In this document: piece after piece, positions 30,912 through 62,959 of the stretch
Layout of the letters: every line of letters begins with the position of its first letter
How positions within the stretch are numbered: the stretch's first letter is position 1
The notes under the pieces: generated by a model
Told to the model about the DNA's origin: nothing
The model's input: the letters and a program-made list of their open reading frames with translations, nothing else
Databases searched by the model: none
Made by a program: the position numbers and the translations under genes
Origin: Oleiphilus sp.
Lineage (GTDB): Bacteria > Pseudomonadota > Gammaproteobacteria > Pseudomonadales > Oleiphilaceae
Direction: 5' to 3'
Length of the DNA: 64,000 bases
Assembly (NCBI GenBank): GCA_006212045.1
Contig: PZPK01000012.1
Coordinates: forward strand, 1-64,000

Positions 30912-33900
30912 ATGACCGCTTCATTCAGCTCCAGCCACGAAGAGCTACTCGACTCCGTTTACCAGCGACTTCTCAGCGAGTTTCCGGTGTCTCACCATCA
31001 TCACTTGAAACACCTGATAACCGGGATGTTCGGTCAGGCGTCGATGCGGGATCTGTCCCGGTATGATTTACCGAACCTGGCAGGCATGGTTGTCACCTTG
31101 TGGCGCACATTGCATAACCGCTCAGGTGAAGGTTCGGATGTGAGTGTGATCAACCCGAATGTCGAAGAACATGAATGGCAGAGCCCGCACACTATTGTCA
31201 CGATATTACACGACGATATTCCTTTTGTGATCGATACTGCGCGTTTGTGTCTGAACGCGCGTGGCATGAACATTCACGCGGTGTTTCACGCCACGTTCAA
31301 GGTAGAGCGGGATGGCAAGGGTGTCTTTAAGGGCTTTTCAGACAAGGGTAAAAGTGAGCTTCTGCTGTCGATTGAAATGGATAGAACTTCCAGTTCCCGG
31401 CAACGCAAGGAAATTTCCGGCGCAATGGAGAAAGTGCTGGGGGATGTCGTTCACGTTGTGAAGGACTTCCCGGCCATGGTCGAAAAATCCAACGAGGTGA
31501 TCAAGGATCTCGATGGCGGGAAATACCCCTTTGACAAGGCGTCCCTTAAAGAAGCCCAGGTGTTCATGAAATGGATGGCTGATAACCACTTTACCTTTCT
31601 TGCCTACGATGAATACGAGGTGAGAGATAATCAGGTGATTACGGTTGATTCGTCAAAGCTCGGATTGTTCAAAACCAAATCAAGACAGCAGCATGAAAAC
31701 CTCGACGAGATGACGGAAGAGCGAAGAGAGCACGTGTTCCGTAAGGAACTACTGGTGTTTACCAAATCCAGCCGTCGCTCCACCGTGCACCGATCAGCCT
31801 ATTCCGACTATGTTCTGGTCAAGCGTTTTAACGCCAAAGGGGAGGTGATTGGCGGGCGAAGGTTTATGGGCTTGTATACCTCTTCGGTTTACAACCAGAC
31901 GCCTGAAGATATCCCTGTCGTCCGGCGCAAGATTGCGATGGTGCTGAAGCAAAGCGGGTTCGAAGGAGGCTCACACTCCTACAAGGAGCTCAGCGGCATT
32001 CTGCATAATTTTCCGCGTGATGAACTGATCCAGAGTGATGTCGCGACGCTATTGAACACATGTCTGGGTGTACTGGCCATTAATGAGCGTAAGCAGGTGC
32101 GCCTGTTTCTGCGAAAAGACGCCTATGGCAATTTCTTAACGGCACTGGTGTACATGCCGAGGGATATATTTAACACGCAGGTGCGTATAAAGGTGCACGA
32201 CATGTTGTCCGAATTCTTCGACGCAGAAGGCTCGGACTTTACAACCTTTTTCAGTGAATCCGTGCTGGCCCGCACGCGTTATGTGTTTAAACTTTCAAAT
32301 TCGCTTGAAGAACTGCCTCCCCCGGAATTACTTGAGAAACGTATTGTTCAGCTCGCCAGGCGCTGGACTGATGAACTACAGCTGGCCTTGAGCGAAAGTT
32401 TTGGTGAAGAACAGGGGATTGCCCTGTTTCGCAGCTATGAGCAGGCCTTCCCATCCGGATATACCGAACAGTACAGCGCCCGTGTTGCAGTAGCTGATAT
32501 TCAAAGAATTGAGCAACTCTACAATTCGAAGCAGGAAAAACTGTCGCTCAGCTTTTTCAAAAGTATGGAACCGACAGAAAGTGTCCTGAAACTTAAAATA
32601 TTCAATCAGGGTGATGCTTTATTGCTCTCGGATCTGATTCCGGTTCTGGAGCACCTGGGGCTGAAGGTTGTGGATGAGTTTCCGTTTGAAATCCAGCACC
32701 CCAAATATGGCTGTACCTGGATTTACGACTTCAATCTGATTTATGAGCCAGACCCGGATCTCAATCCGAGTGAGTACCGCGAGGATTTTTCGGATGCCTT
32801 CCTGAATATCTGGAATGGCCATGCCGAGAACGACAAGTTCAACCACCTTATTCTGGGTACAGAGCTGAATTGGCGCGAAGTTGCGATGCTTCGGGCTTAT
32901 GCAAAATATATGAAGCAAACGCGTTTCGGGATCAGTTTTGACTACATCGCGCAGACTTTGATTGCCTACAAAAACATTACAGAATTTCTCGCATCGATAT
33001 TCGCCAATCGGTTCAAGCCGGGCGTCAAAACTAAAAGAATGAGCACGGATGCGATGATGGAAGAGGTCGAACGGCTGCTCGAAGAAGTCCAGAATATCAA
33101 TGAAGACAGAATTCTCAGACGATATGCCGAACTTATATGTGCGACCGTGCGGACCAACTTTTATCAGATGGAAAAAATACGTCGAGGCAAGGGTGCACAG
33201 GCGGCTTCAAACCAGATAAAAGACTATATCAGTTTTAAACTCGACCCCTCGTGCATCAGCAATATTCCGCTACCTAAACCCAAATTTGAAATTTTTGTCT
33301 ATTCTCCGCGTGTTGAAGGTGTACATTTGCGGGGTGGCGCTGTTTCGCGTGGTGGTTTGCGCTGGTCAGACAGAATTGAGGATTTTCGCACCGAAGTGCT
33401 GGGCCTGGTGAAGGCGCAGCAGGTCAAGAATGCGGTGATTGTACCGGTTGGCGCCAAAGGGGGGTTTGTTGCCAAACGTTTGCCTGCCCCGTCTGATCGG
33501 GAAGCATTCATGGCCGAGGGGATCCGCTGCTACAAAACCTTCATTAGAGGCCTGCTGGATGTCACAGATAATCTTGTCGACAACAAAGTAGTGCCGCCCC
33601 AATCGGTCGTCAGATATGACGATGACGATCCTTATCTGGTTGTCGCGGCAGATAAGGGAACTGCCAGCTTTTCTGACATCGCCAACGAAGTGGCTGTCGG
33701 ATATGGTTTTTGGCTGGGTGATGCCTTTGCATCTGGCGGCTCCAATGGCTATGACCATAAAAAAATGGGTATCACCGCGCGCGGAGCCTGGGTCAGTGTG
33801 CAACGACATTTCCGTGAGCTGGGTGTCAATGTACAAACCGATCCGATTACGGTTGTGGGTATTGGTGACATGTCGGGAGATGTGTTCGGCAACGGTCTGT

Positions 33901-35759
33901 TGCTGTCGAAAACCGTGCAGTTGGTAGGTGCGTTTAACCATATGAATATTTTTGTAGATCCGCACCCGGATCCGTCGGCAAGTTTTGACGAAAGGATGCG
34001 CTTGTTCAAGCTGCCCCGCTCAAGCTGGACCGATTACGATGCCAGCCTTATTTCCAAGGGAGGCGGTATTTTTAATCGCAGCTCCAAGTCAATTCCGATC
34101 AGCAAAGAGATGAAAGAAGTCTTTGGTATCAAGGAATCCAAACTGACGCCTAACGAATTGATTTCGGCCATGCTTAAGTCGCCGGTTGATCTCCTCTGGA
34201 ACGGTGGTATCGGGACTTATGTCAAGGCAAGGAGTGAAACTGATGCAGATATTGGCGATAAGGCCAATGATGCCGTTCGGGTCAATGGTGCTGAACTGCG
34301 TTGCAAGGTAATCGGCGAAGGTGGAAATCTGGGTTTCAGTCAGCTTGGGCGTACCGAATTCAGTCTCAGGGGAGGACGTTGTTTTACTGATTTTATCGAC
34401 AATGCCGGCGGCGTGGATTGCTCGGATCATGAAGTCAATATGAAGGTACTGCTCGATGATCTGGTGACGAACGGCGATATGACCGTCAAGCAGCGCAATC
34501 AGACCCTCGAAAAGCTCACCGACGATGTCGCTCAGCTGGTGCTCGATAATAACTACCGACAAACGCAGTCTCTTGGTGTGGCCTATACCGAGTCATTCAA
34601 GCGTGTTGAAGAGTACCGCCGCTTGATCAATTCACTTGAAGCGCAGGGTAAACTGAACCGGGAGTTGGAGCTATTGCCTGCCGACGACGAAATATCCGAA
34701 CGAAAATCGAATGAACAGGGATTAACGCGCCCCGAACTATCGGTGTTGATTTCCTATGTGAAGGGCGACCTGAAGGAGTTGTTGGCTTGCGAGGAACTGG
34801 TGGACGACAGCTTTGTCGCCAGAATCGTGGAACAGGAATTCCCTGCGGCCATGCTTAAAAAATTCTCCAAAGCAATGCACAGTCATCGCTTGCGTAAGGA
34901 AATCATCGCGACCCTGGTTGCCAATGATATGGTGAATTACCTGGGGATTTCGGTCTTCAATCGCCTGCACGAAAGCACGGGGGCTTCCGCAATAGAAGCG
35001 GCCAAAGCCTATATCGCATCACGTGAGATATTCGGGTTGCATGCCTTGTGGGCCGAAATCGAGGCGCTGGATTACAAAATTCCGGCGGAGCTTCAGTCCA
35101 AAATGATGCTTCGAACTCAGCGCATGGTGCGTCGCGGAACACGTTGGCTGATAAAAAACTACCGCACCGGTATTGATATCGAGGCATCTATCAAGCTGTT
35201 TCGGGATGCGCTGGAAAATCTTCGAGGCGAATTAGGGACGATCCTTCCGGAGAAACCGCGTAATCATTGGCAAAAAGACGCTAAGCAAATGATGGATGAA
35301 GGCGTTCCGAAAGCGCTGGCTGAAAAGGTAGCGGCATCTGAAATGCTTTATATTTCACTCGGCATCATCGCGATAGCCCAAACCAAGAATCAAAACCCGA
35401 TCGAGGTCGCGCACGGGTATTTCCGAGTTGGCGAGGCGCTGGGGCTGGAGTCTTTTGCCAGACAGGTTAATTCACTCAACGTCAATTCACACTGGCAGGC
35501 TTTGGCGCGTGAATCTTACCGGGACGACTTGGAATGGCAGCAGCGCCGGATTACCCAGGGACTGTTTGTGAATATGGACAAAAAAGCAAAACTGGACCAG
35601 GTGATCGATACCTGGCTGAACGAGAACCGTATTCTGGTCGATAGATGGCTCAAGATGTTGAGCGAGATCCGTGCGGCCAGCGAACCGGAATTCAGCATGT
35701 ACAGTGTCGCCATCAGGGAGCTACTGGACCTGTCCCAGGCAACCATGCCGGAATTCTAA
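30912..35759 (+). CDS. gdhB: NAD-specific glutamate dehydrogenase, 180-kDa class
   Basis: The 1615-residue enzyme interconverts glutamate and 2-oxoglutarate plus ammonia with NAD, mainly in the catabolic direction. It has the class's long N-terminal ACT-like regulatory part (about 1-680), the catalytic core with GGLRWSDRIEDFRTEVLGL and VPVGAKGGFVAK (about 810-860), VGIGDMSGDVFGNGLLLS in the Rossmann part (about 980), and a long C-terminal helical region. P. aeruginosa GdhB has nearly the same length. The ATG follows GAGGGA at 7 bases. Its stop overlaps by 4 bases the stop of the convergent gene. Confidence 0.95.
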   Translation: MTASFSSSHEELLDSVYQRLLSEFPVSHHHHLKHLITGMFGQASMRDLSRYDLPNLAGMVVTLWRTLHNRSGEGSDVSVINPNVEEHEWQSPHTIVTILHDDIPFVIDTARLCLNARGMNIHAVFHATFKVERDGKGVFKGFSDKGKSELLLSIEMDRTSSSRQRKEISGAMEKVLGDVVHVVKDFPAMVEKSNEVIKDLDGGKYPFDKASLKEAQVFMKWMADNHFTFLAYDEYEVRDNQVITVDSSKLGLFKTKSRQQHENLDEMTEERREHVFRKELLVFTKSSRRSTVHRSAYSDYVLVKRFNAKGEVIGGRRFMGLYTSSVYNQTPEDIPVVRRKIAMVLKQSGFEGGSHSYKELSGILHNFPRDELIQSDVATLLNTCLGVLAINERKQVRLFLRKDAYGNFLTALVYMPRDIFNTQVRIKVHDMLSEFFDAEGSDFTTFFSESVLARTRYVFKLSNSLEELPPPELLEKRIVQLARRWTDELQLALSESFGEEQGIALFRSYEQAFPSGYTEQYSARVAVADIQRIEQLYNSKQEKLSLSFFKSMEPTESVLKLKIFNQGDALLLSDLIPVLEHLGLKVVDEFPFEIQHPKYGCTWIYDFNLIYEPDPDLNPSEYREDFSDAFLNIWNGHAENDKFNHLILGTELNWREVAMLRAYAKYMKQTRFGISFDYIAQTLIAYKNITEFLASIFANRFKPGVKTKRMSTDAMMEEVERLLEEVQNINEDRILRRYAELICATVRTNFYQMEKIRRGKGAQAASNQIKDYISFKLDPSCISNIPLPKPKFEIFVYSPRVEGVHLRGGAVSRGGLRWSDRIEDFRTEVLGLVKAQQVKNAVIVPVGAKGGFVAKRLPAPSDREAFMAEGIRCYKTFIRGLLDVTDNLVDNKVVPPQSVVRYDDDDPYLVVAADKGTASFSDIANEVAVGYGFWLGDAFASGGSNGYDHKKMGITARGAWVSVQRHFRELGVNVQTDPITVVGIGDMSGDVFGNGLLLSKTVQLVGAFNHMNIFVDPHPDPSASFDERMRLFKLPRSSWTDYDASLISKGGGIFNRSSKSIPISKEMKEVFGIKESKLTPNELISAMLKSPVDLLWNGGIGTYVKARSETDADIGDKANDAVRVNGAELRCKVIGEGGNLGFSQLGRTEFSLRGGRCFTDFIDNAGGVDCSDHEVNMKVLLDDLVTNGDMTVKQRNQTLEKLTDDVAQLVLDNNYRQTQSLGVAYTESFKRVEEYRRLINSLEAQGKLNRELELLPADDEISERKSNEQGLTRPELSVLISYVKGDLKELLACEELVDDSFVARIVEQEFPAAMLKKFSKAMHSHRLRKEIIATLVANDMVNYLGISVFNRLHESTGASAIEAAKAYIASREIFGLHALWAEIEALDYKIPAELQSKMMLRTQRMVRRGTRWLIKNYRTGIDIEASIKLFRDALENLRGELGTILPEKPRNHWQKDAKQMMDEGVPKALAEKVAASEMLYISLGIIAIAQTKNQNPIEVAHGYFRVGEALGLESFARQVNSLNVNSHWQALARESYRDDLEWQQRRITQGLFVNMDKKAKLDQVIDTWLNENRILVDRWLKMLSEIRAASEPEFSMYSVAIRELLDLSQATMPEF

Positions 35760-43121: not shown

Positions 43122-43916
43122 TTAGAAAGAGTGAGAAATCTGTTTGTCTTGCTTGGTCGTGTATTTATCGATGATCGTTTGAAGTTCGGAGTTGCTTTTC
43201 ATGTCTTCTAACGCAGCGTTGAAGCGTTTGACAAACGCAGCAAACGACTTGTTAAACATCAGTCTATATCCAACCGCGGCAATGGCATTGTTGGAGGCCA
43301 CCAATTGACCTTCCCACTGATTTTCATTGATTAGCCAATAACCCACCAGCTCATCCACAATCGCGGCATCAAAGCGCCCTTTGGACATGATGAGATTGTT
43401 GAGCATCTGCTCTTCATAGGCATCGTCGTGGCGATATATAAGACCGTTGGCAAAATACTTTTCCAGGGGTTCGTATCGGTAACCAACATGGGTGCGCAAT
43501 CGGGTGCCCACCAGCTCTTCAATGCGCTCAAACTGCAGGGGTTTACTGGCAGGCGAGAACAGGACATCGCGAATAGAAATAATCGGGTCCGTAAACAGGA
43601 AACGCTCGGCCTCCATCGTCCACTCAATGGCACGAGGCGTAGCGTCGAGCAGCCCCTGTTCAATCATCATATCAACGCGTTTTCTGGGAATCTCGAGATA
43701 TTCAACGTGATATCCTGTCGCGCTTGCCACTTTTTCCAGTACATCGACCATGATTCCATTGATTGCCCCATCCTGTTCCAGAATTGTATAAGGGGGGTAG
43801 GCTTTGACGCCGATGTTAAAACGGATTTCCTGTGCAGTGGTCGAAACTGACAGGGTGGTTAAGACCAGAAGGACGATAATGTGCAAATGATTATGTCTAA
43901 TATGAGAAAGGGTCAT
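43122..43916 (-). CDS. Periplasmic solute-binding protein, family 3
   Basis: The 264-residue protein has a signal peptide (LHIIVLLVLTTLSVSTTAQ) and a type II amino-acid-binding fold: FNIGVKAYPPYTILEQDGAINGI is the start of the domain and MVDVLEKVASATGYHVEY its first helix. RDVLFSPASKP and DAAIVDELVGYWLI follow later. The family's Arg that holds the ligand carboxylate is not obvious. There are no transporter genes beside it, so it may act as a stand-alone sensor input or with a distant permease. It converges on pykA. Confidence 0.8.
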   Translation of the reverse strand: MTLSHIRHNHLHIIVLLVLTTLSVSTTAQEIRFNIGVKAYPPYTILEQDGAINGIMVDVLEKVASATGYHVEYLEIPRKRVDMMIEQGLLDATPRAIEWTMEAERFLFTDPIISIRDVLFSPASKPLQFERIEELVGTRLRTHVGYRYEPLEKYFANGLIYRHDDAYEEQMLNNLIMSKGRFDAAIVDELVGYWLINENQWEGQLVASNNAIAAVGYRLMFNKSFAAFVKRFNAALEDMKSNSELQTIIDKYTTKQDKQISHSF

Positions 43917-44446: not shown

Positions 44447-44998
44447 ATGGGCACAGCATCGAAAACCAATAAAAAGACAGAAAAAAGCACCGCAGCAGAC
44501 CCAGCTATAGACCCGGCCTCCCAACTACATGAAATACAGAAGTTGTTGTTTGGGCGGCAAATTGAACAATTGGAAACGGCCATCGCCGAGCTCAAGTCAG
44601 AAACACAGAAACATCTTGGCCAGATGGAAAAGCAGTACAAGGACAGCCTGGAGAAGCAACGTAAAGTGCACAATGCGCAGTTGTCTGAAATAGCCCAGAA
44701 ACTGGAAGAAGACAGCGCTGGACATTCCAACCGGGAAGCACTCCTGGAAGACGAGTTGGATGCTCTTCGTAAGTCGCTGGACCAATTGGGATCACAGACC
44801 GAAGCTGCGCATGATGCCCTCGAAAAACAGATGCTGTCAGAAAGTCAGCACATACATGAAGAGCTCAATGAGAAACATAAACAGGTGCTGGAACAGCTTA
44901 AAACCGGTACCGAACAACTTGGGGATCAAAAACTTGATCGGGCCGTGCTGGCTGAACTTCTGACCAGTATTGCGCATAAGATCCACCCACAAGCCTGA
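44447..44998 (+). CDS. Coiled-coil protein of the small-GTPase operon
   Basis: I do not recognise a named family. The 183-residue, highly charged soluble protein has a polar N-terminus (1-26), the segment QLHEIQKLLFGRQIEQLETAI (27-47), a long coiled coil from about 35 to 160 rich in Glu, Gln, Lys and Leu, and a C-terminal helix LDRAVLAELLTSIAHKI. The QKLLFGRQIEQ motif resembles RKLLLGPEYEQ near the start of the next gene's product, so both may dock on one partner. No membrane segment or cysteine is present. The next gene begins 23 bp downstream, the first of a four-gene unit. Confidence 0.7.
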   Translation: MGTASKTNKKTEKSTAADPAIDPASQLHEIQKLLFGRQIEQLETAIAELKSETQKHLGQMEKQYKDSLEKQRKVHNAQLSEIAQKLEEDSAGHSNREALLEDELDALRKSLDQLGSQTEAAHDALEKQMLSESQHIHEELNEKHKQVLEQLKTGTEQLGDQKLDRAVLAELLTSIAHKIHPQA

Positions 44999-45021
44999 GG
45001 GCCGCGCAGGACAGCAAGGAT

Positions 45022-46689
45022 ATGACAGGGATCTCCGCAAAAGAGCCTTCCGGCTTGACCGTCGACCAGATCGACAATGCGCCTGATAATGAGTACATCA
45101 GGCTACGCAAGTTATTGCTGGGGCCGGAGTACGAGCAGGCAATCAAAGACTACATCAGTCGACAGAGTGATGCTGAACGTGTTGCTGCGGTATTGTCACA
45201 GGCCATCGAAGCCGCAAGCTCTCGAGATACGGCACTGGGTAAAGCGCTCGCCCCGGTGCTCAACAAGGCTATTCATGAATCTATTAGCCGAAACCCTTCA
45301 CAAATTACCACCGTAATGTCCCCAATCATGGGGCCCTCTATTCGTAAAGCTGTGGCGACGGCTCTCAGCGATATGGTTCAAAGCCTGAACAAGGTGCTTG
45401 AACAAAGCCTGAGTATCAGAGGATTGTTTTGGAGGATCAAAGCCTGGCGAGCCGGCGTTTCTTACGGCCGCTATGTGATGTCGCAAACCCTTAGGTTTGC
45501 CGTAGAGCAGGTGCTGCTGGTTCACAGGGAAACGGGGCTGCTGTTGCACTCTGTTGTCAGTGAAACAACGGATACCAAGGATCCGGAACTGGTATCCAGT
45601 ATGCTCACGGCGATCCAGGATTTTGTTGCGGATTCATTTGATACAGCCTCCGGTGCCGATTTGGACAAGGTGCAGGTGGGAGATCTGACCTTGCACCTTA
45701 TCTCCGGTGGCAATTCAGTTTTGGCGTTCGCGACACGAGGAACGATAGGTCCCGCTGCGATGGAGCAGATCATTGGTCATTATGAAACACTACAGCAAGA
45801 GTTTACCGAAGAAATAGCCGGGTTTTCAGGAAATCGTGACGCATTTAACGGTGCAGAAGATCATCTGAAGTCTTGTCTGCTATCTGAACAGCTGGTACCC
45901 AAAACAAGCAGGCAACAACGACCCTGGCTGGCGATTGCTGTACTTTTTATGTTGGGGCTGGCGCTTGTTTATAATGGCTATCTAGGTACTCTGCGCACCT
46001 TGGAGTATGAACGGATTGTCGAAGCCTTGTCATCCCAGGGCGATTACATGCTGATCAGCCATCGCATCGAGGACGAGCACATCACCGCGCAAATGTTGCG
46101 TTCCGTCAGTGGAATACCTCCCGAACAGTTAATACGAAATATTGAACCGGCCTTTTACGATCTTCAGCTGGATGTGCGGGCGCTTACCTTTGGCGAAATT
46201 GATGTGGATAAGCTGAACGCTTTGGAGTTGCCCACCCCTGCACCTGAGCCGACGTTGCTTGAAAAGTTCAATGCGCTTGCCGGTCTAATCCAGAGTCAGA
46301 GTCTGTATTTTGAAAAAGGCACGGCGAATCTGTCCGGCCAAAGTATCGAAACCTTTCAAACGCTGGTATCGAAACTCAAGAATGTGTCCGAAATTGCTGA
46401 AGTTTTAAAGCCGGGCCAGTTGCAGATAATGGTGCAGGGCTATTCTGATAGGGTGGGGTCACGAATCAATAATTTGGCGCTGAGCAAAGAGCGCGCAGAA
46501 CACGTGCGTGATATGCTGATCTCCAATGGTCTGTCCGCTGACACGGTCATTGCCTGGGGGCTTGGGTACAGGGATTTAGGAGTCGAGGACCTAGAGTGGC
46601 AGCGCCGGGTCGCCATACAAGTGCTTCTGCCAGGTGTGTCGATTAATCTGTCCAATTCGAATGCGTCAAAGCTGGGAATGCAACGATAA
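45022..46689 (+). CDS. Single-pass protein: cytoplasmic sensor-like domain, TM, periplasmic OmpA domain
   Basis: The 555-residue protein is cytoplasmic from 1 to about 300. It begins with RLRKLLLGPEYEQAIKDYI, continues with amphipathic helices, and at about 160-262 has a roadblock/longin-like pattern (VLLVHRETGLLLHSVV, DPELVSSMLTAIQDFVADSF, LTLHLISGGNSVLAFATRG). One membrane helix follows (PWLAIAVLFMLGLALVYNGY, about 301-320). The periplasmic part has a BON-like segment (330-390) and an OmpA peptidoglycan-binding domain (440-540) with GYSDRVGSRINNLALSKERAEHV, retaining the Asp and Arg that bind diaminopimelate. The stop overlaps the GTPase start (TAATG). It probably anchors the module to the cell wall. 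The longin-like reading is inference. Confidence 0.8.
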   Translation: MTGISAKEPSGLTVDQIDNAPDNEYIRLRKLLLGPEYEQAIKDYISRQSDAERVAAVLSQAIEAASSRDTALGKALAPVLNKAIHESISRNPSQITTVMSPIMGPSIRKAVATALSDMVQSLNKVLEQSLSIRGLFWRIKAWRAGVSYGRYVMSQTLRFAVEQVLLVHRETGLLLHSVVSETTDTKDPELVSSMLTAIQDFVADSFDTASGADLDKVQVGDLTLHLISGGNSVLAFATRGTIGPAAMEQIIGHYETLQQEFTEEIAGFSGNRDAFNGAEDHLKSCLLSEQLVPKTSRQQRPWLAIAVLFMLGLALVYNGYLGTLRTLEYERIVEALSSQGDYMLISHRIEDEHITAQMLRSVSGIPPEQLIRNIEPAFYDLQLDVRALTFGEIDVDKLNALELPTPAPEPTLLEKFNALAGLIQSQSLYFEKGTANLSGQSIETFQTLVSKLKNVSEIAEVLKPGQLQIMVQGYSDRVGSRINNLALSKERAEHVRDMLISNGLSADTVIAWGLGYRDLGVEDLEWQRRVAIQVLLPGVSINLSNSNASKLGMQR

Positions 46690-47192
46690 TGACGATGCCT
46701 CGGATCTCGAAAAAAGTGTGTATGGTAGGCCCATTTGCGGTGGGTAAAACCAGTCTTGTCAGGCGCTTTGTTGAGAGTATTTTTAGTGATAAATACCACA
46801 CTACGATCGGGGTAAAAATATCCAAGAAGGTGATCGATCTGGACGAGGCGCAAATGCAATTGATGTTATGGGACATCGAGGGCGTTGACGTGTTTACAGA
46901 TCTTAGGCCAAGCTATTTACGTGGGGCGGCCGGAGTCATGATTGCAGTGGATGGTACACGTCCCGCTACTTTCAAGCAGATTGACCGCCTGATAGAGCTC
47001 GTTAACCAGCAATTGCCTGATGTGCCGAAAGTTTTATTGGTGAACAAGTTTGACTTGAAATCGGAATGGAAGCTGGAAGAACAGGCGCTTGAAGAATATG
47101 CGTCCCGTGGAATTCCGGTTTTCCGTACCAGTGCCAAAACCGGCGAAGCCGTAGAAGAGGCCTTCGAAACGTTGGCAAAAAGCATAGTGTAA
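46689..47192 (+). CDS. Rab/Ras-like small GTPase
   Basis: The 167-residue protein is a stand-alone Ras-superfamily GTPase with all motifs: G1 GPFAVGKTSLV, G2 Thr in YHTTIGVKI, G3 WDIEG, G4 NKFD and G5 TSAK. The G3 loop has WDIEG instead of the WDTAGQ of Ras, so the catalytic Gln position is altered and intrinsic hydrolysis may be slow. There is no prenylation cysteine at the C-terminus. Prokaryotic relatives include MglA and poorly described groups. It is coupled to the OmpA-domain gene by TAATG overlap (an ATG two codons later is an alternative) and followed 75 bp on by a GGDEF-EAL gene. Confidence 0.88.
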   Translation: MTMPRISKKVCMVGPFAVGKTSLVRRFVESIFSDKYHTTIGVKISKKVIDLDEAQMQLMLWDIEGVDVFTDLRPSYLRGAAGVMIAVDGTRPATFKQIDRLIELVNQQLPDVPKVLLVNKFDLKSEWKLEEQALEEYASRGIPVFRTSAKTGEAVEEAFETLAKSIV

Positions 47193-47267
47193 GCCCGGGG
47201 CTGAGCAGCCGTGCCGAGGCACTAGTGATATGGTGAAGTTTAACGTAACTGCCGGGGGAAGTCGGCC

Positions 47268-49454
47268 ATGGCTCTATTACAAGGTGTGCTGGAAAGGCTA
47301 GGTGTCGTTGTTTTCGAACGCACTGACCAGGGCGATTTTAGGCTCTGTTCCCGGCCTCCTCGCTGGCTGAATGTGCTCACGCGACAGGTCGGTGCGGCTG
47401 AACTGGCGTCTGGCGAAACCATTAGTCTTGATACCCTTTGTGATGTATTTCCGGTCGTTGATAGCTTTATGCATGATGCCGCTGCAGTTTGGGCGCAGAA
47501 TGACAGCTTTGATTCAGGCCTGCGTTCCGGCCTCTGGACAGACATCGACGAAAACGCCAATGAATATAATCTCGAAGCACGCGCAATGCGTTTGGATGGT
47601 GCGGCAGTCCTGCTGATTGAAAATTTAAGCGATACTTTTTCAGACCGGCATCAGGTATACCAGAAAGCCAGAGATATCGCCCTGATTAACGAGAAGTTGG
47701 TATCAGAACTAAATTACCGTCAACGCAAGCTTCAATCAGAGATTGTCCGGCATTTGGCTTGTGAGTCGACCGTCAATGAGTTGCCGGAAGCCGTCGAGAG
47801 AAACACCTCTGCCGTATTGGTATGCCTGCCTGACGGGCACGTCGAGGTTTACAACAAGGCATTGATCGATATTTATGAGATGAAGGTGGAAGATCAGATC
47901 GTGCGTGCTTCCTTGCTCGACAAATGGATATCCGAAGCAGAGCAAAACTATCCCGAGATTCACCGGGTTCTTCGTTCGGGGGCGTACTGGGAAGGCGAGT
48001 TCAAAACCAAGGGGAGCAGGAACGAGGATAAATGGATACGCCTGAGTATCGGGCCTGTAAAAGATAGTGAAGGCAGCATTGCCCATTATGTTTGCGTTGC
48101 GAACGACCTGACTGATTATCAACGCAGCAGTGAAGACTGGCACCGGGTTGCTGAATATGATTTCAACACGCACCTGCCTAACCGTCGACAATTCTGGAAA
48201 CACATTAGCTCGGCGTTTGAAGCGAATGCCGGGGCTGAAGAAATGGTCGGTTTGCTTTACATCGATATCGACTATTTCAAGCGCATTAACGATGATTTTG
48301 GTCAGATGGCGGGCGACTTTCTGCTCAGCACAATTGCTTCGCGTATCTCGCGCAATATTAAATACCGGGATTTTGTAGCGCATCTGGGTGGTGATGAGTT
48401 TGCGATTGTGCTGAGGTTCCTGGATTCGGAAGAAGTGACCGCGAACCTGTCAGATCGGCTGCTAAACAGCATATCTGAACCTTTGTCTTTGGATGGGCAT
48501 CCGATTTCAGTGACCGCAAGTATTGGATGTGCGGTGGAACGGATCAAGGATACTGACCCTCGATCACTGTTACGAAAGGCGGATCTGGCAATGTATGCTG
48601 CCAAAGAGCTTGGTCGTTCCCAGGCACGAATGTACAGTAAAGCGATGGAAGACCATCTGCCTATGCGCAGGCAGCGTGAGCATGAACTCTCCGAAGCGAT
48701 CGAGCGCCAGCAGTTTGTACTCGAGTTTCAACCTCAGGTTGCCATCCGCAGTGAAAAGGGTGGCAATAAATGTCGCGGCAATGTTTTCCGTGTCGAAGCA
48801 TTGATTCGCTGGATGCATCCCGATAAAGGCATGATTGCTCCGAGTGGCTTTATCGCGATTGCCGAAGAATCCGGATCAATCGTGCATATTGGAAAGTGGG
48901 TGCTCAGTGAGGCATGCGAACAGGGCGTGCGGATGATGCGTGAAGGTGTCGATCTTAATATGGCCGTCAATATTTCTCCGAAACAACTACGGCATCCTGA
49001 CTTTTATAATTGCTTGACGACGGTGCTCGAATCTTCAGGTTTTCCTCCAGAGCGATTGGAACTTGAAATCACAGAAAGCAATTTTCTGAAGGAAATGGAG
49101 GCGATGATTGCTCTGCTTGGCAGGATTCGGGAGCGCGGAATCATGATTGCCCTGGATGATTTTGGTTCGGGCTTTTCTTCGCTCAATTATCTAAAACGCT
49201 TGCCGGTTAACTGCATCAAAATTGATCGCTCGTTTGTGCGAGACCTGCCAAACGATATAGAAAGCAAAGCGATCACTACATCGGTGATTCATCTGGCTCA
49301 TCAGCTGGATATGGAAGTCATTGCCGAAGGTGTAGAAACACGGCAGCAAATGGATTTTCTCAAAAAACAGCAGGTAGACTATATTCAGGGTTTCTATTTT
49401 CATCGACCAATGAGTGCCGACAAGATCCTTGCATTAATGCGCGAGGATTCCTAG
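47268..49454 (+). CDS. PAS-GGDEF-EAL protein, c-di-GMP turnover
   Basis: The 728-residue cytoplasmic protein has an N-terminal PAS-like region (1-125), a short coiled coil, a second PAS (about 185-290), a GGDEF domain and an EAL domain. The GGDEF motif is intact at 374-378 (HLGGDEFAIVL), with LYIDIDYFKRIND metal ligands. The inhibitory site reads KYRD instead of RxxD. The EAL motif is intact at 510-512 (FRVEALIRW), with LEITESNF, ALDDFGSGFSSL, KIDRSFV and EGVETRQQ. Both synthesis and hydrolysis are possible; PDE activity is likely. GGGGGAAG lies 8 bases before the ATG. Operon position suggests control by the GTPase. Confidence 0.92.
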   Translation: MALLQGVLERLGVVVFERTDQGDFRLCSRPPRWLNVLTRQVGAAELASGETISLDTLCDVFPVVDSFMHDAAAVWAQNDSFDSGLRSGLWTDIDENANEYNLEARAMRLDGAAVLLIENLSDTFSDRHQVYQKARDIALINEKLVSELNYRQRKLQSEIVRHLACESTVNELPEAVERNTSAVLVCLPDGHVEVYNKALIDIYEMKVEDQIVRASLLDKWISEAEQNYPEIHRVLRSGAYWEGEFKTKGSRNEDKWIRLSIGPVKDSEGSIAHYVCVANDLTDYQRSSEDWHRVAEYDFNTHLPNRRQFWKHISSAFEANAGAEEMVGLLYIDIDYFKRINDDFGQMAGDFLLSTIASRISRNIKYRDFVAHLGGDEFAIVLRFLDSEEVTANLSDRLLNSISEPLSLDGHPISVTASIGCAVERIKDTDPRSLLRKADLAMYAAKELGRSQARMYSKAMEDHLPMRRQREHELSEAIERQQFVLEFQPQVAIRSEKGGNKCRGNVFRVEALIRWMHPDKGMIAPSGFIAIAEESGSIVHIGKWVLSEACEQGVRMMREGVDLNMAVNISPKQLRHPDFYNCLTTVLESSGFPPERLELEITESNFLKEMEAMIALLGRIRERGIMIALDDFGSGFSSLNYLKRLPVNCIKIDRSFVRDLPNDIESKAITTSVIHLAHQLDMEVIAEGVETRQQMDFLKKQQVDYIQGFYFHRPMSADKILALMREDS

Positions 49455-49591: not shown

Positions 49592-51106
49592 CTAACCGTC
49601 ACTATTTCCAATGGTAGAAACATCGGGTATCAGATTGATCAATGCGATCAGTGGCTCTGGATAGAAAAACATCACAATACAACCAAGCGAGGTCACGCCG
49701 ATCGCAATCAGACAGGGTAATGGCGCTTCTTTTGTTTGCGACCAGCTCCAGGCCTCTTGTGCTTCGTTTGAGCGATGGAAAAAAGCCTTGAAAGGGATGG
49801 GAAGCAAATAGGCGATATTCAGCAATGAGCTGATGATCAGGGTCGCGACAATCAGAAGCTTATCAGCGTCGAGCGCTCCCATGGCCAGGTGCCACTTACT
49901 CCATGTGCCCGCCATCGGTGGCAGCCCGATAATGCTGATTGCACCAATCGCAAAGGCTGCCATCGTTAATGGCATTTGACGCCCTAGTCCAGCCATATCG
50001 CTGATGTTCTTTTTGTGGCTGGCGACCATGATCGCCCCGGCACAAAAAAACAGGGTGATCTTGCCGGCAGCATGTGTGGCGATATGCAGCGCAGCGCCAG
50101 CGGCTGCGATGGACGAGGCGAGCAGGGCACCAACCACGATGTAACTGAGCTGGCTGACCGTTGAATAAGCTAGCCGTGCTTTGAGATTGTCCTTGGTCAT
50201 CGCGATGCAGGAAGAGATTAAAATCGTGGCAGCCCCGATATACAGCATGATATCTGTCGTTTCCAGATTCCTCAGTTCATCCAGCCCGAAGATATAAATA
50301 ACGACCTTAAGAATACTGAATACGCCTGCCTTTACTACCGCAACGGCATGCAGCAAGGCGCTGACCGGTGTCGGTGCAACCATCGCAGCAGGCAACCATC
50401 GGTGGAAAGGCATAATGGCGGCTTTACCGATGCCATAGCAGAATAGTACCAATAGAACCGCCAGTACGCCTTTATGTTCTGTCTCGGCAAAGATACCTCC
50501 CGGGCGAAAATCGAGTGTGCCGGTGAGGCTCCAGGTGCCGAGCACAGCAAGCAGTAAGAAGGCGATGGACGTGCTCAGTAAAATCCCGAGATAAATCCGG
50601 CCTCCCTTTTTCGCCGCATCGGTGCCGGCGTGTGTTACCAGAGGGTAGGTCGACAGTGTCAGTACTTCGTAGAAGATAAACAGTGTTAGCAGGTTGCCGG
50701 AAAAGCAGATGGCCATGACCGAACTGATTGCCAGGGCAAAGCAGCAAAAGAAACGGGTCTGGTTGACTTCATGATGCCCCCGCATATAGCCAATGGCGTA
50801 AATGCTGGTAATGATCCATAGAAAGCTGGCCACAAGCGCGAAGAGGACACCGAGCGGCTCGACATCAAAACTGATTCCGAGACCGGGAAACAGTTCGATC
50901 ACCTGCAGGTTTAAGGCAACACCCTGAAATACGAGGTCGGTGATAGCCAACACAATAGTAAACAGTATGACCGCAGTCGAGAGCGTGACAGTCTCTCTCA
51001 GATTAGGTGTTTTACCTGTTGCGACAACAAGCAGGGCGCCAATGAACGGCACCAGTATGGACAGTGCAATTAATTGTCCGGGTTCAAAGCCTTGCCAAAG
51101 ATTCAT
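49592..51106 (-). CDS. mnhD: Mrp/Mnh antiporter, second D-type subunit
   Basis: The 504-residue polytopic protein belongs to the proton-translocating NuoM/MrpD family. It has the membrane Glu in LFIFYEVLTLSTYPLV and the Lys/Pro region GIGKAAIMPFHRWLPAAM and LLHAVAVVKAGVFS. It is the last gene of the leftward mnh operon and overlaps the preceding D-type gene by 4 bases. Canonical Mrp complexes have one MrpD and one large MrpA; here this second D-like subunit may fill the place of the N-terminal half of MrpA. The symbol is approximate. Confidence 0.85.
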   Translation of the reverse strand: MNLWQGFEPGQLIALSILVPFIGALLVVATGKTPNLRETVTLSTAVILFTIVLAITDLVFQGVALNLQVIELFPGLGISFDVEPLGVLFALVASFLWIITSIYAIGYMRGHHEVNQTRFFCCFALAISSVMAICFSGNLLTLFIFYEVLTLSTYPLVTHAGTDAAKKGGRIYLGILLSTSIAFLLLAVLGTWSLTGTLDFRPGGIFAETEHKGVLAVLLVLFCYGIGKAAIMPFHRWLPAAMVAPTPVSALLHAVAVVKAGVFSILKVVIYIFGLDELRNLETTDIMLYIGAATILISSCIAMTKDNLKARLAYSTVSQLSYIVVGALLASSIAAAGAALHIATHAAGKITLFFCAGAIMVASHKKNISDMAGLGRQMPLTMAAFAIGAISIIGLPPMAGTWSKWHLAMGALDADKLLIVATLIISSLLNIAYLLPIPFKAFFHRSNEAQEAWSWSQTKEAPLPCLIAIGVTSLGCIVMFFYPEPLIALINLIPDVSTIGNSDG

Positions 51107-52608
51107 GGAGACACCTCCAGCACTTTACTGTTCTGGAACAACCATTCGGAAGCGCTGGACGCGGCTTCGGTTGTAATACTTGTTTCGATACCAAAGTAAA
51201 TATTGGCAATGACCAGCGACCACATCGGGATCAGCATAAGCCACGGCGCCTCCTTCACTTCAGCTGCACTGGCGTCGTCGGAAGCCGATTGAAAATAGGC
51301 TGCTTCCAGAACCCGCCCAATATAGATAACGGCCAATAACGAACCCGCCAATACCAGAAAAGCCAGTATCCAATGCTGTTGTTCCAAAGCTGCAGTCACC
51401 AGATACCATTTGCTGACAAACCCGACGGTCAAGGGCACCCCGATAATGCTGAGCCCTGCAATCGTAAAGGCAGCCATGGTCAGCGGCATCTGCTTACCGA
51501 GTCCTCTGAAAGCCTTAATGTCAACTGACCCGACACGATAAAAAACTGCGCCTACCGCCATGAACAGAGCGCCTTTCATCAGAGCATGATTGAAAATATG
51601 GATCAGGCCCGCCATTAAACCGGTGACGCTGACCAGGCTCACACCAAGGACCATATAGCCAATTTGCGCAACACTGCTGTAAGCGAGAACTGTTTTGACA
51701 TTGCTTTGCGCGGTTGCCATGTAAGAGCACTTGAAGATCGCGACGATGGCGAGCACCATCAGGATCAGATCCATGCCCATTTCGCGGAAGACATAATCGG
51801 CCCCGAAAATGGTAAAGATGAACCGAATCATCACATAGACTGCGACCTTGGTTGCGGTGCTGGCCAAAAAGGCCGTGACTGCTGAGGGGGCGTGTGTGTA
51901 GGCTGGCGGGAGCCATGCATGCAAGGGAAACAACGCGAGTTTGATGCTGACGCCAACCATAATGAAAGCCAGCCCGGTATTGATCGTGCGATTACCGTCA
52001 GCAAGATGGATGCGCTCGGCTAAATCCAGCATGTTCAGTGTGCCGGTTTTCATATACAGCATACCAACACCGATCAATATGAAGGTTGCACCGATGGTAC
52101 CCATCACCAGGTAGCGGAACGCGGCAGTCAAACAGCGCCGGTCTCTAGCCAGACTGACCAGTGTATAGGTCGCGAGTGACGATATTTCCAGAAATACAAA
52201 CAGGTTGAAGGCATCGCCGGTCACCAGAATTCCTGACAGACCTGCCAGGCAAAGCAAATGGGCCGTATAAAATAAAGGATGCTGGGCACTGTCGATCTCT
52301 TTTTCGATGCTGTTTTTGGAGTACACCAGCACCAGTGTGGACACGGCTGTAACTGCCAGCAACACAAATGCGTTGGCGGCATCAACGCGCATTTCTATGC
52401 CCCAGGGAGGAGGCCAGCCGCCCATGGCATAGCTCAGCGAACCTTCGGAGAGGGCGGCCAATAGCAGATGCCAGGATGCATAACAGGCCCAGGCACTAAT
52501 CAGGGTTGCAAAGCCCCAGGTTAACAGTGAACGGCCCAGAATCAGCGCGATAGGTGCCGCAATTAGGGGGATAATAATGGGAAGCGCAGCCAAGTGTTGT
52601 TCAAACAT
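51103..52608 (-). CDS. mnhD: Mrp/Mnh antiporter subunit D
   Basis: The 501-residue subunit is close to true MrpD. It carries the essential Glu in FNLFVFLEISSLATYTLV and the Lys residues in GVSIKLALFPLHAWLPPAYTHAPSAV (given as one loop-TM span, about 205-230) and ASTATKVAVYVMIRFIF. It would form one proton channel of the complex. ATGA overlaps join it to mnhC upstream and to the second D-like gene downstream, so the order C-D-D is translationally coupled. Confidence 0.92.
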   Translation of the reverse strand: MFEQHLAALPIIIPLIAAPIALILGRSLLTWGFATLISAWACYASWHLLLAALSEGSLSYAMGGWPPPWGIEMRVDAANAFVLLAVTAVSTLVLVYSKNSIEKEIDSAQHPLFYTAHLLCLAGLSGILVTGDAFNLFVFLEISSLATYTLVSLARDRRCLTAAFRYLVMGTIGATFILIGVGMLYMKTGTLNMLDLAERIHLADGNRTINTGLAFIMVGVSIKLALFPLHAWLPPAYTHAPSAVTAFLASTATKVAVYVMIRFIFTIFGADYVFREMGMDLILMVLAIVAIFKCSYMATAQSNVKTVLAYSSVAQIGYMVLGVSLVSVTGLMAGLIHIFNHALMKGALFMAVGAVFYRVGSVDIKAFRGLGKQMPLTMAAFTIAGLSIIGVPLTVGFVSKWYLVTAALEQQHWILAFLVLAGSLLAVIYIGRVLEAAYFQSASDDASAAEVKEAPWLMLIPMWSLVIANIYFGIETSITTEAASSASEWLFQNSKVLEVSP

Positions 52609-59911: not shown

Positions 59912-62900
59912 TTATAGCTTGATAGATCTAATTTTATCCATATCAAAACGAGCATCATTAGATGCCTTCCTTCTGAAATCGTATTCGCCACGTAAATTAA
60001 CGTGCTTCCATGTTATCACTGAGCCCTGACTTATTGATTCAATGAGATCTCTTCTATCGTCAGGGTCTGACGTGTCAGCTACAAGGTCGGATAAATATAA
60101 ATAGTTCCAGAGTATGATTGAGTTCTGGAGAAGCAGCTTGCACGCCGTAGCAACTTCCTGGTCTGCTAGAACACCTTCTTGAAAGGCTTGGTCGTTGTCA
60201 AAGAATACCGCTCGAGAGAATCTATTCGAAAGCTCGACTCTATTGAGTTGCTTTTGTATTTGTTGTCTTAGATCTTCGTCATCGAAATAAGTCAGAATGA
60301 ACTGTGATTTAATAACCCTTCCAAACTCTTTAAGTGCTCGATACAAGGGGTGCTCCTTAGAGTATGAGCTTAATCGTTTAAACAGCTGTGAGGCAGTAGC
60401 TTGCTTCATCTTAATCGTTGCAATAAATCTTAAGATATCATCCCAGTGATCAAGTATTTGATTTTTGCTGACAGGACGACTTGGAAGTAGACGATATCCT
60501 TTGTCGTAAAAAGTTTTTCGCGCAGAAAAGCTATATATTTGCTGGTTCCCGATGTTGGCAAGTCTTGGTGCAAACGCTATCCCTAGAAAGTGCGACACAG
60601 CGAATATCTGCTCTGTATAACCATGTGTATCGGTTGAATGTACTTGCCTAAGATCCGTCACTTCATTTTGGAGTAAACCATCAATGACGTATGGTGCCTC
60701 ACGATCGGAAGCGCTGAAGACAGAGTTGTGGAATAACGACTGCTTTTCATCAATGAATGTATAAATTGTGACGCCCTTGTCTTTGCCGAAATATTTGTAG
60801 GAATGATTCGCGTGCAAGCAATCTACATCGACGTTTACCTTTCTACCATCACTCGATGAGTGGAGAACTTCCGGATCCTTTAGATAAGCACTGGATAATT
60901 TTAAATTGTGGATTGCATCTACGATGCGGTTATTAGCTTTTCTAATATTTTCTAAACTGAAAAACCAGTTAACTGTGTTGTGCAGCGTGTGCTCCTGTAT
61001 ACCAGCGGAAATACTCGCGAGTTTGCCTAAGCCAATATTACAGCCCTTTGCAAGAATACCAGCCATTAGAGTTTCTTCCTTTGGTTTCATCTTTACATTT
61101 TTAGGGCTCAGGTGCTTAAAGTCAGCAGTGAACTGGCATACCTGGTTTACTTCTTTAAGTAGTTGGAGAATTGGAATATATCCATCCTGGGATAGGGCAT
61201 CCGCAATAAATGATTCCTCTTGAAAGTCAGTTTTTGGCGTGCTCACTCTAGATACTCGGCCATCTTTAAAAGTGAGGGAGGTATTTATCCCGTCGGCTAA
61301 GTGCTTATTAACAACCTTGTATTTCTCGTGAAGGCCCAATTTTAAGCCCGCTAAATATGCTTCTCCGTCTATGTACTCAAGTAGATTGCACTCGCGCAAG
61401 ATCTGGTATTTTCGAGCCTCCCAATATTCTTTATCAATCATGTAGTCCTGAATGCTGCGGAAGCGATATGAGTAGGCTAAATTTAAGTCCCCGGATTTGA
61501 TTGCTTTAGAGATATAGATAAACAGCAGGCACTTATACAGAGGGATTGAAAAGTCATTACGCTCAACATTAGCTCGATCTTGCTTTGACAGAAACTTAAT
61601 AGGTGGAGATTTGCCGACATTGCCCTCTGACTCTTGAAAGTGATCTACTGCTTCTAATAAATCCTTTGCCTTGGAGGTACTATCAAAATTGAGAGCACGT
61701 ACGATAGGGGTCGCTTTAAGTTGAAGTCTTAAAGAAAGCGATTCGAGCAGTTGATAGTACGTATGATTTTTACTTTCTTTTCTCAGCTGATTATCCAGAT
61801 CTTCTAACAAACTATAATCAATTTCGTCGTTCTTTTGGTAATCAAAAACCAGCTCTTCTATCTTGTGATATTTTTCGTTGGGCGTTGCAGATACGCTTTC
61901 AACAATTGAGATAATTTCTTTTGCTAGCTTTGAAATAGATTTATGAGATTTGCTTAACTCGTGAATTGCCTTGTCTCGTTCTTCTTTGACAGATCGTTCG
62001 TGCTCAGCTTGTTTGCTTGAAGCTTTGTGCAACGTTGATGTCACCGACTTCATCAAAGCGTCTACTAGACTATCTTGCCGAGCGAAGTAGTGATGCTTAA
62101 CAAACCCCAGCAGGTGAAGATAAATATTTTCTTTATCTGTAAATTGCGTCAGTTGTTGAATATCGGCTTTGCGTACCCATTCAGCATAATACCTAGTCGC
62201 CTTGTCATTTATATTTAATTCGTCATAAACATCTGCAAGCTGATCAAACATATCTTTGAAAACGATCATGTTATTCACGTTTTGCTTAATATCTTTTGGC
62301 CGCATGGACTGATCAATGTTCTTATATGATGCTAGCGGGGTAGTTGTTCTGCTTCCGGCAGTTATGGGAGTTAATAGGGAGTCCAGTAATTCTGAATGAG
62401 CCGGTTTAATCGCCCTGCGAAGATTAGAAATTTGATTCTTCTCTGACTCGTTGAAAGCATCCGTGATTATTGTGTTTAATTCACTAAAGCTCGGAATGGC
62501 TACTTGGTGTTTCCAGCAAGCATCTGTAAGCGCGTCGAAAATGAATTTTGGTTGTTCTTTTTGAGCAGCAAAATTCAGCGCTAAACCTACTAGAGTTTCA
62601 GTCATACTACTGTCATAAGATTCCCAGTTCAGGAAATCCAGAATCTTGATTCTATGCCTGGTAACTAAAGATCCAGCGTAGCTAGTCAATGAAGTAGGGG
62701 GTTCAACGCTTAAAGTTTTAGCCACATGGTTGATATCGCGCTTTCCAAATTGGGCAGAATTGAAAAAGCGAGCTCGAGATCTGAAGTAACCAAGCTGCAA
62801 AATAAAGCCAATTCTGCTTTCGATCGGATGAATTCGAGTGATGCTTGATTTCAGTTCAGATGGAATCGAGAAGTAACGTTGACGATCTTCCTTGGAAAAT

Positions 62901-62959
62901 CTAGGAGGAGTGTCGAACAACAGTCTTTCTGCGTCGTTCAAAATATTGATAACTGGCAT
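59912..62959 (-). CDS. tnpA: Tn3-family transposase TnpA
   Basis: The 1015-residue protein catalyses replicative transposition. The N-terminus (LNDAERLLFDTPPRFSKEDR, then YFSIPSELKSSI and FILQLGYFRSRARFF) is the DUF4158-type DNA-binding region of Tn3 transposases. The catalytic DDE part is complete: Asp in SSSDGRKVNVDVD, Asp in HSTDTHGYTEQIF and Glu in RALKEFGRVIKSQFIL. Near the end, LLLQNSIILWNYLYLSDLV and ITWKHVNLRGEYDF are family hallmarks. The size is that of full-length TnpA. It is likely active. Confidence 0.95.
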   Translation of the reverse strand: MPVINILNDAERLLFDTPPRFSKEDRQRYFSIPSELKSSITRIHPIESRIGFILQLGYFRSRARFFNSAQFGKRDINHVAKTLSVEPPTSLTSYAGSLVTRHRIKILDFLNWESYDSSMTETLVGLALNFAAQKEQPKFIFDALTDACWKHQVAIPSFSELNTIITDAFNESEKNQISNLRRAIKPAHSELLDSLLTPITAGSRTTTPLASYKNIDQSMRPKDIKQNVNNMIVFKDMFDQLADVYDELNINDKATRYYAEWVRKADIQQLTQFTDKENIYLHLLGFVKHHYFARQDSLVDALMKSVTSTLHKASSKQAEHERSVKEERDKAIHELSKSHKSISKLAKEIISIVESVSATPNEKYHKIEELVFDYQKNDEIDYSLLEDLDNQLRKESKNHTYYQLLESLSLRLQLKATPIVRALNFDSTSKAKDLLEAVDHFQESEGNVGKSPPIKFLSKQDRANVERNDFSIPLYKCLLFIYISKAIKSGDLNLAYSYRFRSIQDYMIDKEYWEARKYQILRECNLLEYIDGEAYLAGLKLGLHEKYKVVNKHLADGINTSLTFKDGRVSRVSTPKTDFQEESFIADALSQDGYIPILQLLKEVNQVCQFTADFKHLSPKNVKMKPKEETLMAGILAKGCNIGLGKLASISAGIQEHTLHNTVNWFFSLENIRKANNRIVDAIHNLKLSSAYLKDPEVLHSSSDGRKVNVDVDCLHANHSYKYFGKDKGVTIYTFIDEKQSLFHNSVFSASDREAPYVIDGLLQNEVTDLRQVHSTDTHGYTEQIFAVSHFLGIAFAPRLANIGNQQIYSFSARKTFYDKGYRLLPSRPVSKNQILDHWDDILRFIATIKMKQATASQLFKRLSSYSKEHPLYRALKEFGRVIKSQFILTYFDDEDLRQQIQKQLNRVELSNRFSRAVFFDNDQAFQEGVLADQEVATACKLLLQNSIILWNYLYLSDLVADTSDPDDRRDLIESISQGSVITWKHVNLRGEYDFRRKASNDARFDMDKIRSIKL

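Follow-up and report, generated by a model that had tools for sequence, protein, structure and literature searches.

Four co-directional genes, read from the plus strand, make up the locus within the window, by which we mean the whole 64,000-nucleotide stretch of Oleiphilus sp. DNA that was analysed (Table 1). ORF calls give spacings of 23, -1 and 75 bp between them, as a sequence-only reading of this DNA had stated, and Pfam agrees with that reading on an OmpA domain in gene 2, a Ras-type GTPase in gene 3 and a GGDEF-EAL protein in gene 4. The gene set is isolated, with a solute-binding-protein gene divergent on its upstream side and antiporter genes convergent on its downstream side. Specifically, a solute-binding family 3 protein is encoded immediately upstream of gene 1 (43122-43916, minus strand), and two neighbouring Proton_antipo_M proteins, Mrp/complex-I-like antiporter subunits, are encoded downstream (49592-52608, minus strand). 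Farther away lie a Tn3-family transposase gene (59912-62959, minus strand; 1015 aa, DDE_Tnp_Tn3 1e-118), ~10 kb downstream of the module, and the gene of a large NAD-dependent glutamate dehydrogenase of the Bac_GDH type (30912-35759, plus strand; 1615 aa). A promoter and terminator scan of the module rose barely above shuffles, and a PHROGs scan matched the GTPase to no family and the OmpA part only weakly, to families of no assigned function.

Table 1. Genes, domains and motifs of the module, with their positions in the window
Feature	Position	Strand	Basis
Gene 1, coiled-coil protein predicted cytoplasmic, 183 aa	44447..44998	+	ORF call; homologue in 64/74 loci
N-terminal motif LHEIQKLLFG, gene 1 residues 27-36	44525..44554	+	strict pattern search
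Gene 2, one-pass membrane protein, longin-like cytoplasmic domain and periplasmic OmpA domain, 555 aa	45022..46689	+	ORF, Pfam, AF2
N-terminal motif IRLRKLLLG, gene 2 residues 26-34	45097..45123	+	strict pattern search
Predicted longin/roadblock-fold domain, gene 2 residues 158-291	45493..45894	+	AF2, Foldseek, VIA-align
Transmembrane helix, gene 2 residues 303-321	45928..45984	+	hydropathy
OmpA peptidoglycan-binding domain, gene 2 residues 429-520, with Asp476 and Arg491	46306..46581	+	Pfam
Gene 3, Group 1 Rup GTPase, 167 aa	46689..47192	+	Pfam, PDB sequence matches, alignment
G3 motif DIEGV, Val66 replacing the catalytic Gln of Ras-type GTPases	46872..46886	+	alignment
Gene 4, Q-PAS - PAS - GGDEF - EAL output protein, 728 aa	47268..49454	+	ORF, Pfam
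Type-A Q-PAS domain with exit helix, gene 4 residues 1-172	47268..47783	+	AF2 pLDDT 94; PAS/LOV matches
Gln132 and Arg135 on exit helix (QKAR), candidate in-trans catalytic residues	47661..47672	+	conservation in homologues

The gene-3 product matches the Ras family in Pfam at 7.5e-35 and, at 167 aa, is below 240 aa in length. Its best PDB sequence matches are Rab1A and Sec4, and by sequence it appears nearest to Rab, on the Rab/Ras side of the Ras superfamily, which upholds its earlier description as Rab-like. The same gene set was published by Wuichet & Søgaard-Andersen in 2014 (PMC4316618), who place it around the genes of "Group 1 Rup" GTPases, described as bacterial proteins that closely resemble Rab/Ran/Ras/Rho, and propose a signalling role for it. 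They also note that the G3 glutamine is missing and that the output protein carries an invariant glutamine, and they state that no Rup protein was characterised at the time of writing. The sequence-only reading had named no system with these genes and offered them as an undescribed one; because PMC4316618 describes the same set, this novelty claim does not hold, and the outline of the earlier interpretation stands. We conclude, with a probability of about 0.95, that the locus is a Group 1 Rup signalling module with a c-di-GMP output. A search of open-access literature citing or naming Rup found no experimental study of Rup proteins.

The G3 glutamine is missing from 85 of the 88 GTPases compared. 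The three that retain it (L052, L079 and L086) form one clade nested in the glutamine-less tree, which a fourth genome, L099, joins; together they are a small Desulfobacterota clade with a glutamine at G3 of a Rup-like GTPase. A Ser/Thr protein kinase gene follows the GTPase gene in L079 and L099, where the downstream side is visible. Near the GTPases of this clade, in what are incomplete assemblies, no gene 1, gene 2 or Q-PAS (the glutamine-bearing PAS domain of the output protein) was seen, and the gene-2 domain was absent from three of the genomes in a search with a profile that finds it in other genomes. That the only GTPases seen with a glutamine in cis form one clade without visible partners is a new observation, and it fits a PAS domain that supplies the glutamine to the other GTPases, the comparison being a single evolutionary event seen in incomplete assemblies.

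To survey the module, bacterial genomes were scanned with the GTPase alignment, giving 80 loci, many from MAGs, in Proteobacteria, Cyanobacteria, Acidobacteria, Bacteroidetes, Chloroflexi, Planctomycetes, Verrucomicrobia, Myxococcales and others. Partners were counted with iterated HMMs, and one copy of a duplicated contig was left out. Where at least 2.8 kb of upstream sequence was available, gene 1 was found in 64 and the gene-2 domain in 63 of 74 loci; where at least 1 kb was available downstream, 77 of 81 loci had a glutamine-bearing PAS domain. Among 321 evenly drawn gammaproteobacterial genomes, the GTPase and the gene-2 domain were each detected in 27 and were found together in 26 (hypergeometric P ~6e-36, relatedness ignored), so the gene set is not a product of chance. 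The two genes lie on the same contig no more than ~2 kb apart in 24 of these 26 genomes; of the remaining two pairs, one is near contig ends and one is on different contigs. Similarly, seven of 58 nearer relatives have both the GTPase and the gene-2 domain and the other 51 have neither; six of the seven carry the type-A PAS domain found in gene 4, and the seventh (L013) has a PAS of a second type, B, adjoining the GTPase. The sequence-only reading had expected the GTPase to keep company with both an OmpA and a GGDEF-EAL partner. The first expectation holds, as the OmpA-type partner is present in 26 of the 27 gammaproteobacterial genomes with the GTPase, whereas the GGDEF-EAL protein is mainly a feature of one gammaproteobacterial clade whose relatives have other outputs. 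Five loci (L026, L038, L061, L071 and L089) have the GTPase with Q-PAS genes only, the coiled-coil and longin/OmpA genes not being detected nearby, so a nearby longin protein is not a constant requirement; the minimal unit may be the GTPase plus Q-PAS.

In the gene-2 product, the OmpA domain is recognised by Pfam at 1.9e-13, and its Asp476 and Arg491, the Asp/Arg pair with which OmpA domains bind peptidoglycan, both lie within GYSDRVGSRINNLALSKERA. A single hydrophobic segment leaves ~300 residues on the cytoplasmic side, as had been read from the sequence. For this cytoplasmic part, Pfam, NCBIfam and PDB sequence searches gave nothing useful, so the only match came from fold comparison. In an AF2 model computed from 51 sequences, the first half of the region is helical and is followed, at residues 158-291, by a domain with the order beta-beta-alpha-beta-beta-beta-alpha plus C-terminal helices; the assignment derives from this one model, with a pLDDT of ~90 over most of the domain and a whole-construct pTM of 0.53. 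The best solved structures in Foldseek are longin/roadblock domains and related proteins (AP sigma, Ragulator, TRAPP, Fuzzy and MglB; E 1e-4 to 1e-3), and VIA-align, in matches spanning 106-133 residues, gave Z scores of 12.7 for the VAMP7 longin domain, 12.4 for TRAPP, 12.1 for Sec22b and Fuzzy, 10.7 for Mon1-Ccz1 and 10.4 for MglB. An hhalign profile alignment with 31 roadblock proteins ran the full length and kept register across 100 columns; its statistics were weak (P 0.013, controls 0.24-0.64; HH probability 3%), and an earlier roadblock profile of four sequences likewise matched weakly. We predict that this domain, formerly "unknown", adopts a longin/roadblock fold like those of Rab GEFs and MglB, an assignment that is new here. 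TRAPP and Mon1-Ccz1, both Rab GEFs, have this fold, as does the MglA-binding protein MglB, and it is typically on longin and roadblock domains that Rab and MglA GTPases undergo exchange or are switched off. Such domains may serve as GAPs, GEFs or scaffolds, and the fold alone does not give the function. None of the open-access papers on bacterial longin domains that were found ties them to the gene-2 family. In eight Granulosicoccaceae loci (L025, L056, L057, L062, L065, L066, L073 and L076) the longin protein stops after the transmembrane region and an OmpA domain was not detected; a stand-alone type-B PAS comes next, followed in most by a separate large PAS/GAF sensor-type gene and, in L025 and L056, by a receiver-type gene after that.

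Gene 1, for which Pfam returned only weak coiled-coil-like matches, has in common with gene 2 an LxxLRxLLxG stretch near the N-terminus of the product. A strict pattern for this stretch occurs in 84% of gene-1 proteins, 54% of gene-2 proteins and 1.4% of other ORFs, and an unanchored comparison of the two family profiles singles out the same stretch. The LRxLLxG motif, whose presence in both first proteins is new in this analysis, may act as a common docking or co-assembly element.

The output protein encoded by gene 4 is matched in Pfam by GGDEF (1.2e-38), EAL (8.4e-72) and PAS_9 (1.1e-8), and all of its active-site motifs are there (GGDEF; EALIRW, EITE, DDFG, KID and EGVE), so that by its motifs it qualifies as a putative bifunctional GGDEF-EAL enzyme. 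The PAS domain previously noted in this protein is present at residues 182-283, but the family-specific PAS is another one, which carried no prior annotation and occupies residues 1-120 plus an exit helix. In the AF2 model, residues 1-172 form a PAS domain followed by a long continuous exit helix, and comparison with solved LOV/PAS structures gave an E of 1e-4 and a best Z of 8.3, with most values ~7. On this helix, Gln132 is conserved in 62 of 64 gene-4 homologues and Arg135 in 59; we take Gln132 to be the published invariant glutamine of Group 1 Rup outputs. Type B, a second PAS-like family, carries a glutamine of its own at the matching place, invariant in 37 of 37 sequences, and comparison of the type-A and type-B profiles aligns the glutamine regions (E 1.3e-4, probability 54%). 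A type-B domain can make up a stand-alone protein by itself, at ~132 aa; elsewhere it is fused to cyclase or SpoIIE domains, or precedes type A in tandem. In Calothrix and related cyanobacteria (L030, L043, L047, L048, L063, L064, L070 and L088) a stand-alone type-B Q-PAS of ~133 aa lies between the GTPase and Q-PAS output genes, and in these loci it is a fifth component of the module. The location of the invariant glutamine on a PAS exit helix, and its recurrence in a second PAS family, are new here.

The enzymes joined to these PAS domains differ widely. Output classes were taken from Pfam counts, since regular expressions overcalled histidine kinases; many kinases are unlabelled on the GTPase tree. 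Across 51 non-redundant output proteins, Pfam finds HATPase_c in 21, HisKA in 18, GGDEF in 12, EAL in 11, an HD-GYP-type HD domain in 9, a nucleotidyl cyclase in 4 and SpoIIE in 1; in L046 there is a sigma54-type ATPase with a PAS-like N-terminus. At least 10 output changes are seen on the GTPase tree (41 labelled rows), and other phyla have the same module architecture with other outputs. The GTPases that accompany gammaproteobacterial EAL outputs fall into a single supported clade of 15 (SH-aLRT 96), and one separate case is found in a cyanobacterium. All 15 EAL outputs compared retain essentially intact catalytic motifs in the EAL domain, with ERVE for EGVE in L090, while GGDEF is degenerate in the Alteromonas and L090 outputs and the RxxD inhibitory site is missing from gammaproteobacterial EAL outputs. 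HD-GYP enzymes with intact motifs are encoded in 11 other loci. Given the intact EAL motifs, the several degenerate GGDEF domains and the HD-GYP enzymes, hydrolysis appears to be the better-conserved c-di-GMP output.

The sequence-only reading proposed a cell-wall-linked switch that passes an envelope signal through the GTPase to c-di-GMP. This agrees with a single module in which a wall-linked protein and a GTPase switch are combined with an output through c-di-GMP, and we infer a possible route for the signal. In outline, a wall-anchored longin protein would load the GTPase, which would act through Q-PAS on c-di-GMP turnover until the glutamine ends the signal, a scheme to which we give just under even odds. 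The OmpA protein would be attached to peptidoglycan. Its longin/roadblock-like domain, possibly together with the coiled-coil protein, would exchange the nucleotide of the GTPase in response to the state of the envelope; we lean slightly towards a GEF rather than a GAP for this domain. GTP-bound Rup would then bind the N-terminal PAS of gene 4 and alter GGDEF-EAL activity, most likely that of the EAL phosphodiesterase. Gln132, with Arg135, would supply in trans what the GTPase site lacks, making hydrolysis, and with it the duration of the signal, dependent on effector binding. We lean a little against a catalytic Gln132, and the residue could be structural.

If instead the longin/roadblock domain were a GAP of the MglB kind, it would turn the GTPase off from the wall side, and Q-PAS would be an effector only, with a structural glutamine. 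MglB, from the same superfamily and a match to the gene-2 domain, is both GAP and GEF for MglA, and the loci with the GTPase and Q-PAS and without the longin protein are as expected of an effector pair. However, MglA, the GTPase on which MglB acts, retains its own catalytic glutamine, whereas nearly all of the GTPases compared here lack theirs, and the conservation of a glutamine in two divergent PAS families, together with the clade that has it in cis and no visible partners, also speaks against this alternative, which we consider unlikely. The coiled coil, the wall anchor and the parallel with MglA polarity switches would also suit a positioning switch, one that brings the c-di-GMP enzyme to a pole or division site and leaves its catalytic rate unchanged, and the wide variation in output type is as expected of a generic recruiter; a continuous exit helix, however, joins the PAS to the enzyme, and PAS exit helices are the usual route for activity control, making such a switch improbable. 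That the genes are neighbours by chance or operon hitch-hiking, with no functional coupling, is hardly credible in view of their co-occurrence across phyla and in gammaproteobacterial genomes, and of the correlated divergence of the module parts (Mantel r 0.38-0.57, shared species history included; 0/500 permutations as high).

The loading scheme, in which the longin domain acts as exchange factor, has a bolder form: an operon-encoded bacterial Rab-longin pair in which the peptidoglycan-anchored longin domain is the exchange factor and effectors supply the missing catalytic glutamine in trans, a prokaryotic counterpart of Rab-TRAPP control. We regard this full version as doubtful; if true, a Rab-longin pair would drive c-di-GMP hydrolases, kinases and cyclases across many phyla. 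Of all the findings, the predicted longin fold most deserves a test. A longin-fold partner in the same operon would tie Group 1 Rup GTPases to the protein class that controls eukaryotic Rabs, and simple bacteria could then serve to test how the Rab-longin pairing arose. The module would, in addition, give the cell wall a switch-type input into c-di-GMP turnover.

Among known systems, the closest is the Group 1 Rup neighbourhood itself. As given in PMC4316618, it comprises the same four genes (a coiled coil; a conserved domain followed by a transmembrane segment and OmpA; a Rup without the G3 glutamine; and a DGC/PDE or histidine kinase with an N-terminal invariant glutamine), and the gene set described here does not differ from it. 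Beyond what the consulted passages of that paper describe go the longin-like fold, the PAS identity of the glutamine-bearing domain, the second Q-PAS family, the HD-GYP, cyclase and SpoIIE outputs, and the LRxLLxG motif. The MglA-MglB polarity module likewise pairs a small GTPase with a roadblock/longin-superfamily protein; however, the GTPase studied here is on the Rup/Rab side, its partner is membrane- and wall-anchored, and its output is an enzyme. An MglA/MglB system was rejected, as Pfam found no MglB/roadblock family protein (PF03259) in the host genome. Eukaryotic Rabs with longin-type GEFs (TRAPP, Mon1-Ccz1 and Fuzzy-Inturned) resemble the module in having a Rab-like GTPase and a partner with the longin fold predicted here (Z 10 to 12), but the module has no vesicle traffic, and its predicted longin domain, a candidate GEF, is part of a peptidoglycan-binding membrane protein. 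Finally, the actinobacterial conservons (CvnA-D) are also operons, of a membrane sensor, a roadblock protein, a protein of unknown function and a Ras-like GTPase, but differ in that their GTPases group with MglA in PMC4316618, their MglB-type protein is separate and their sensor is histidine-kinase-like.
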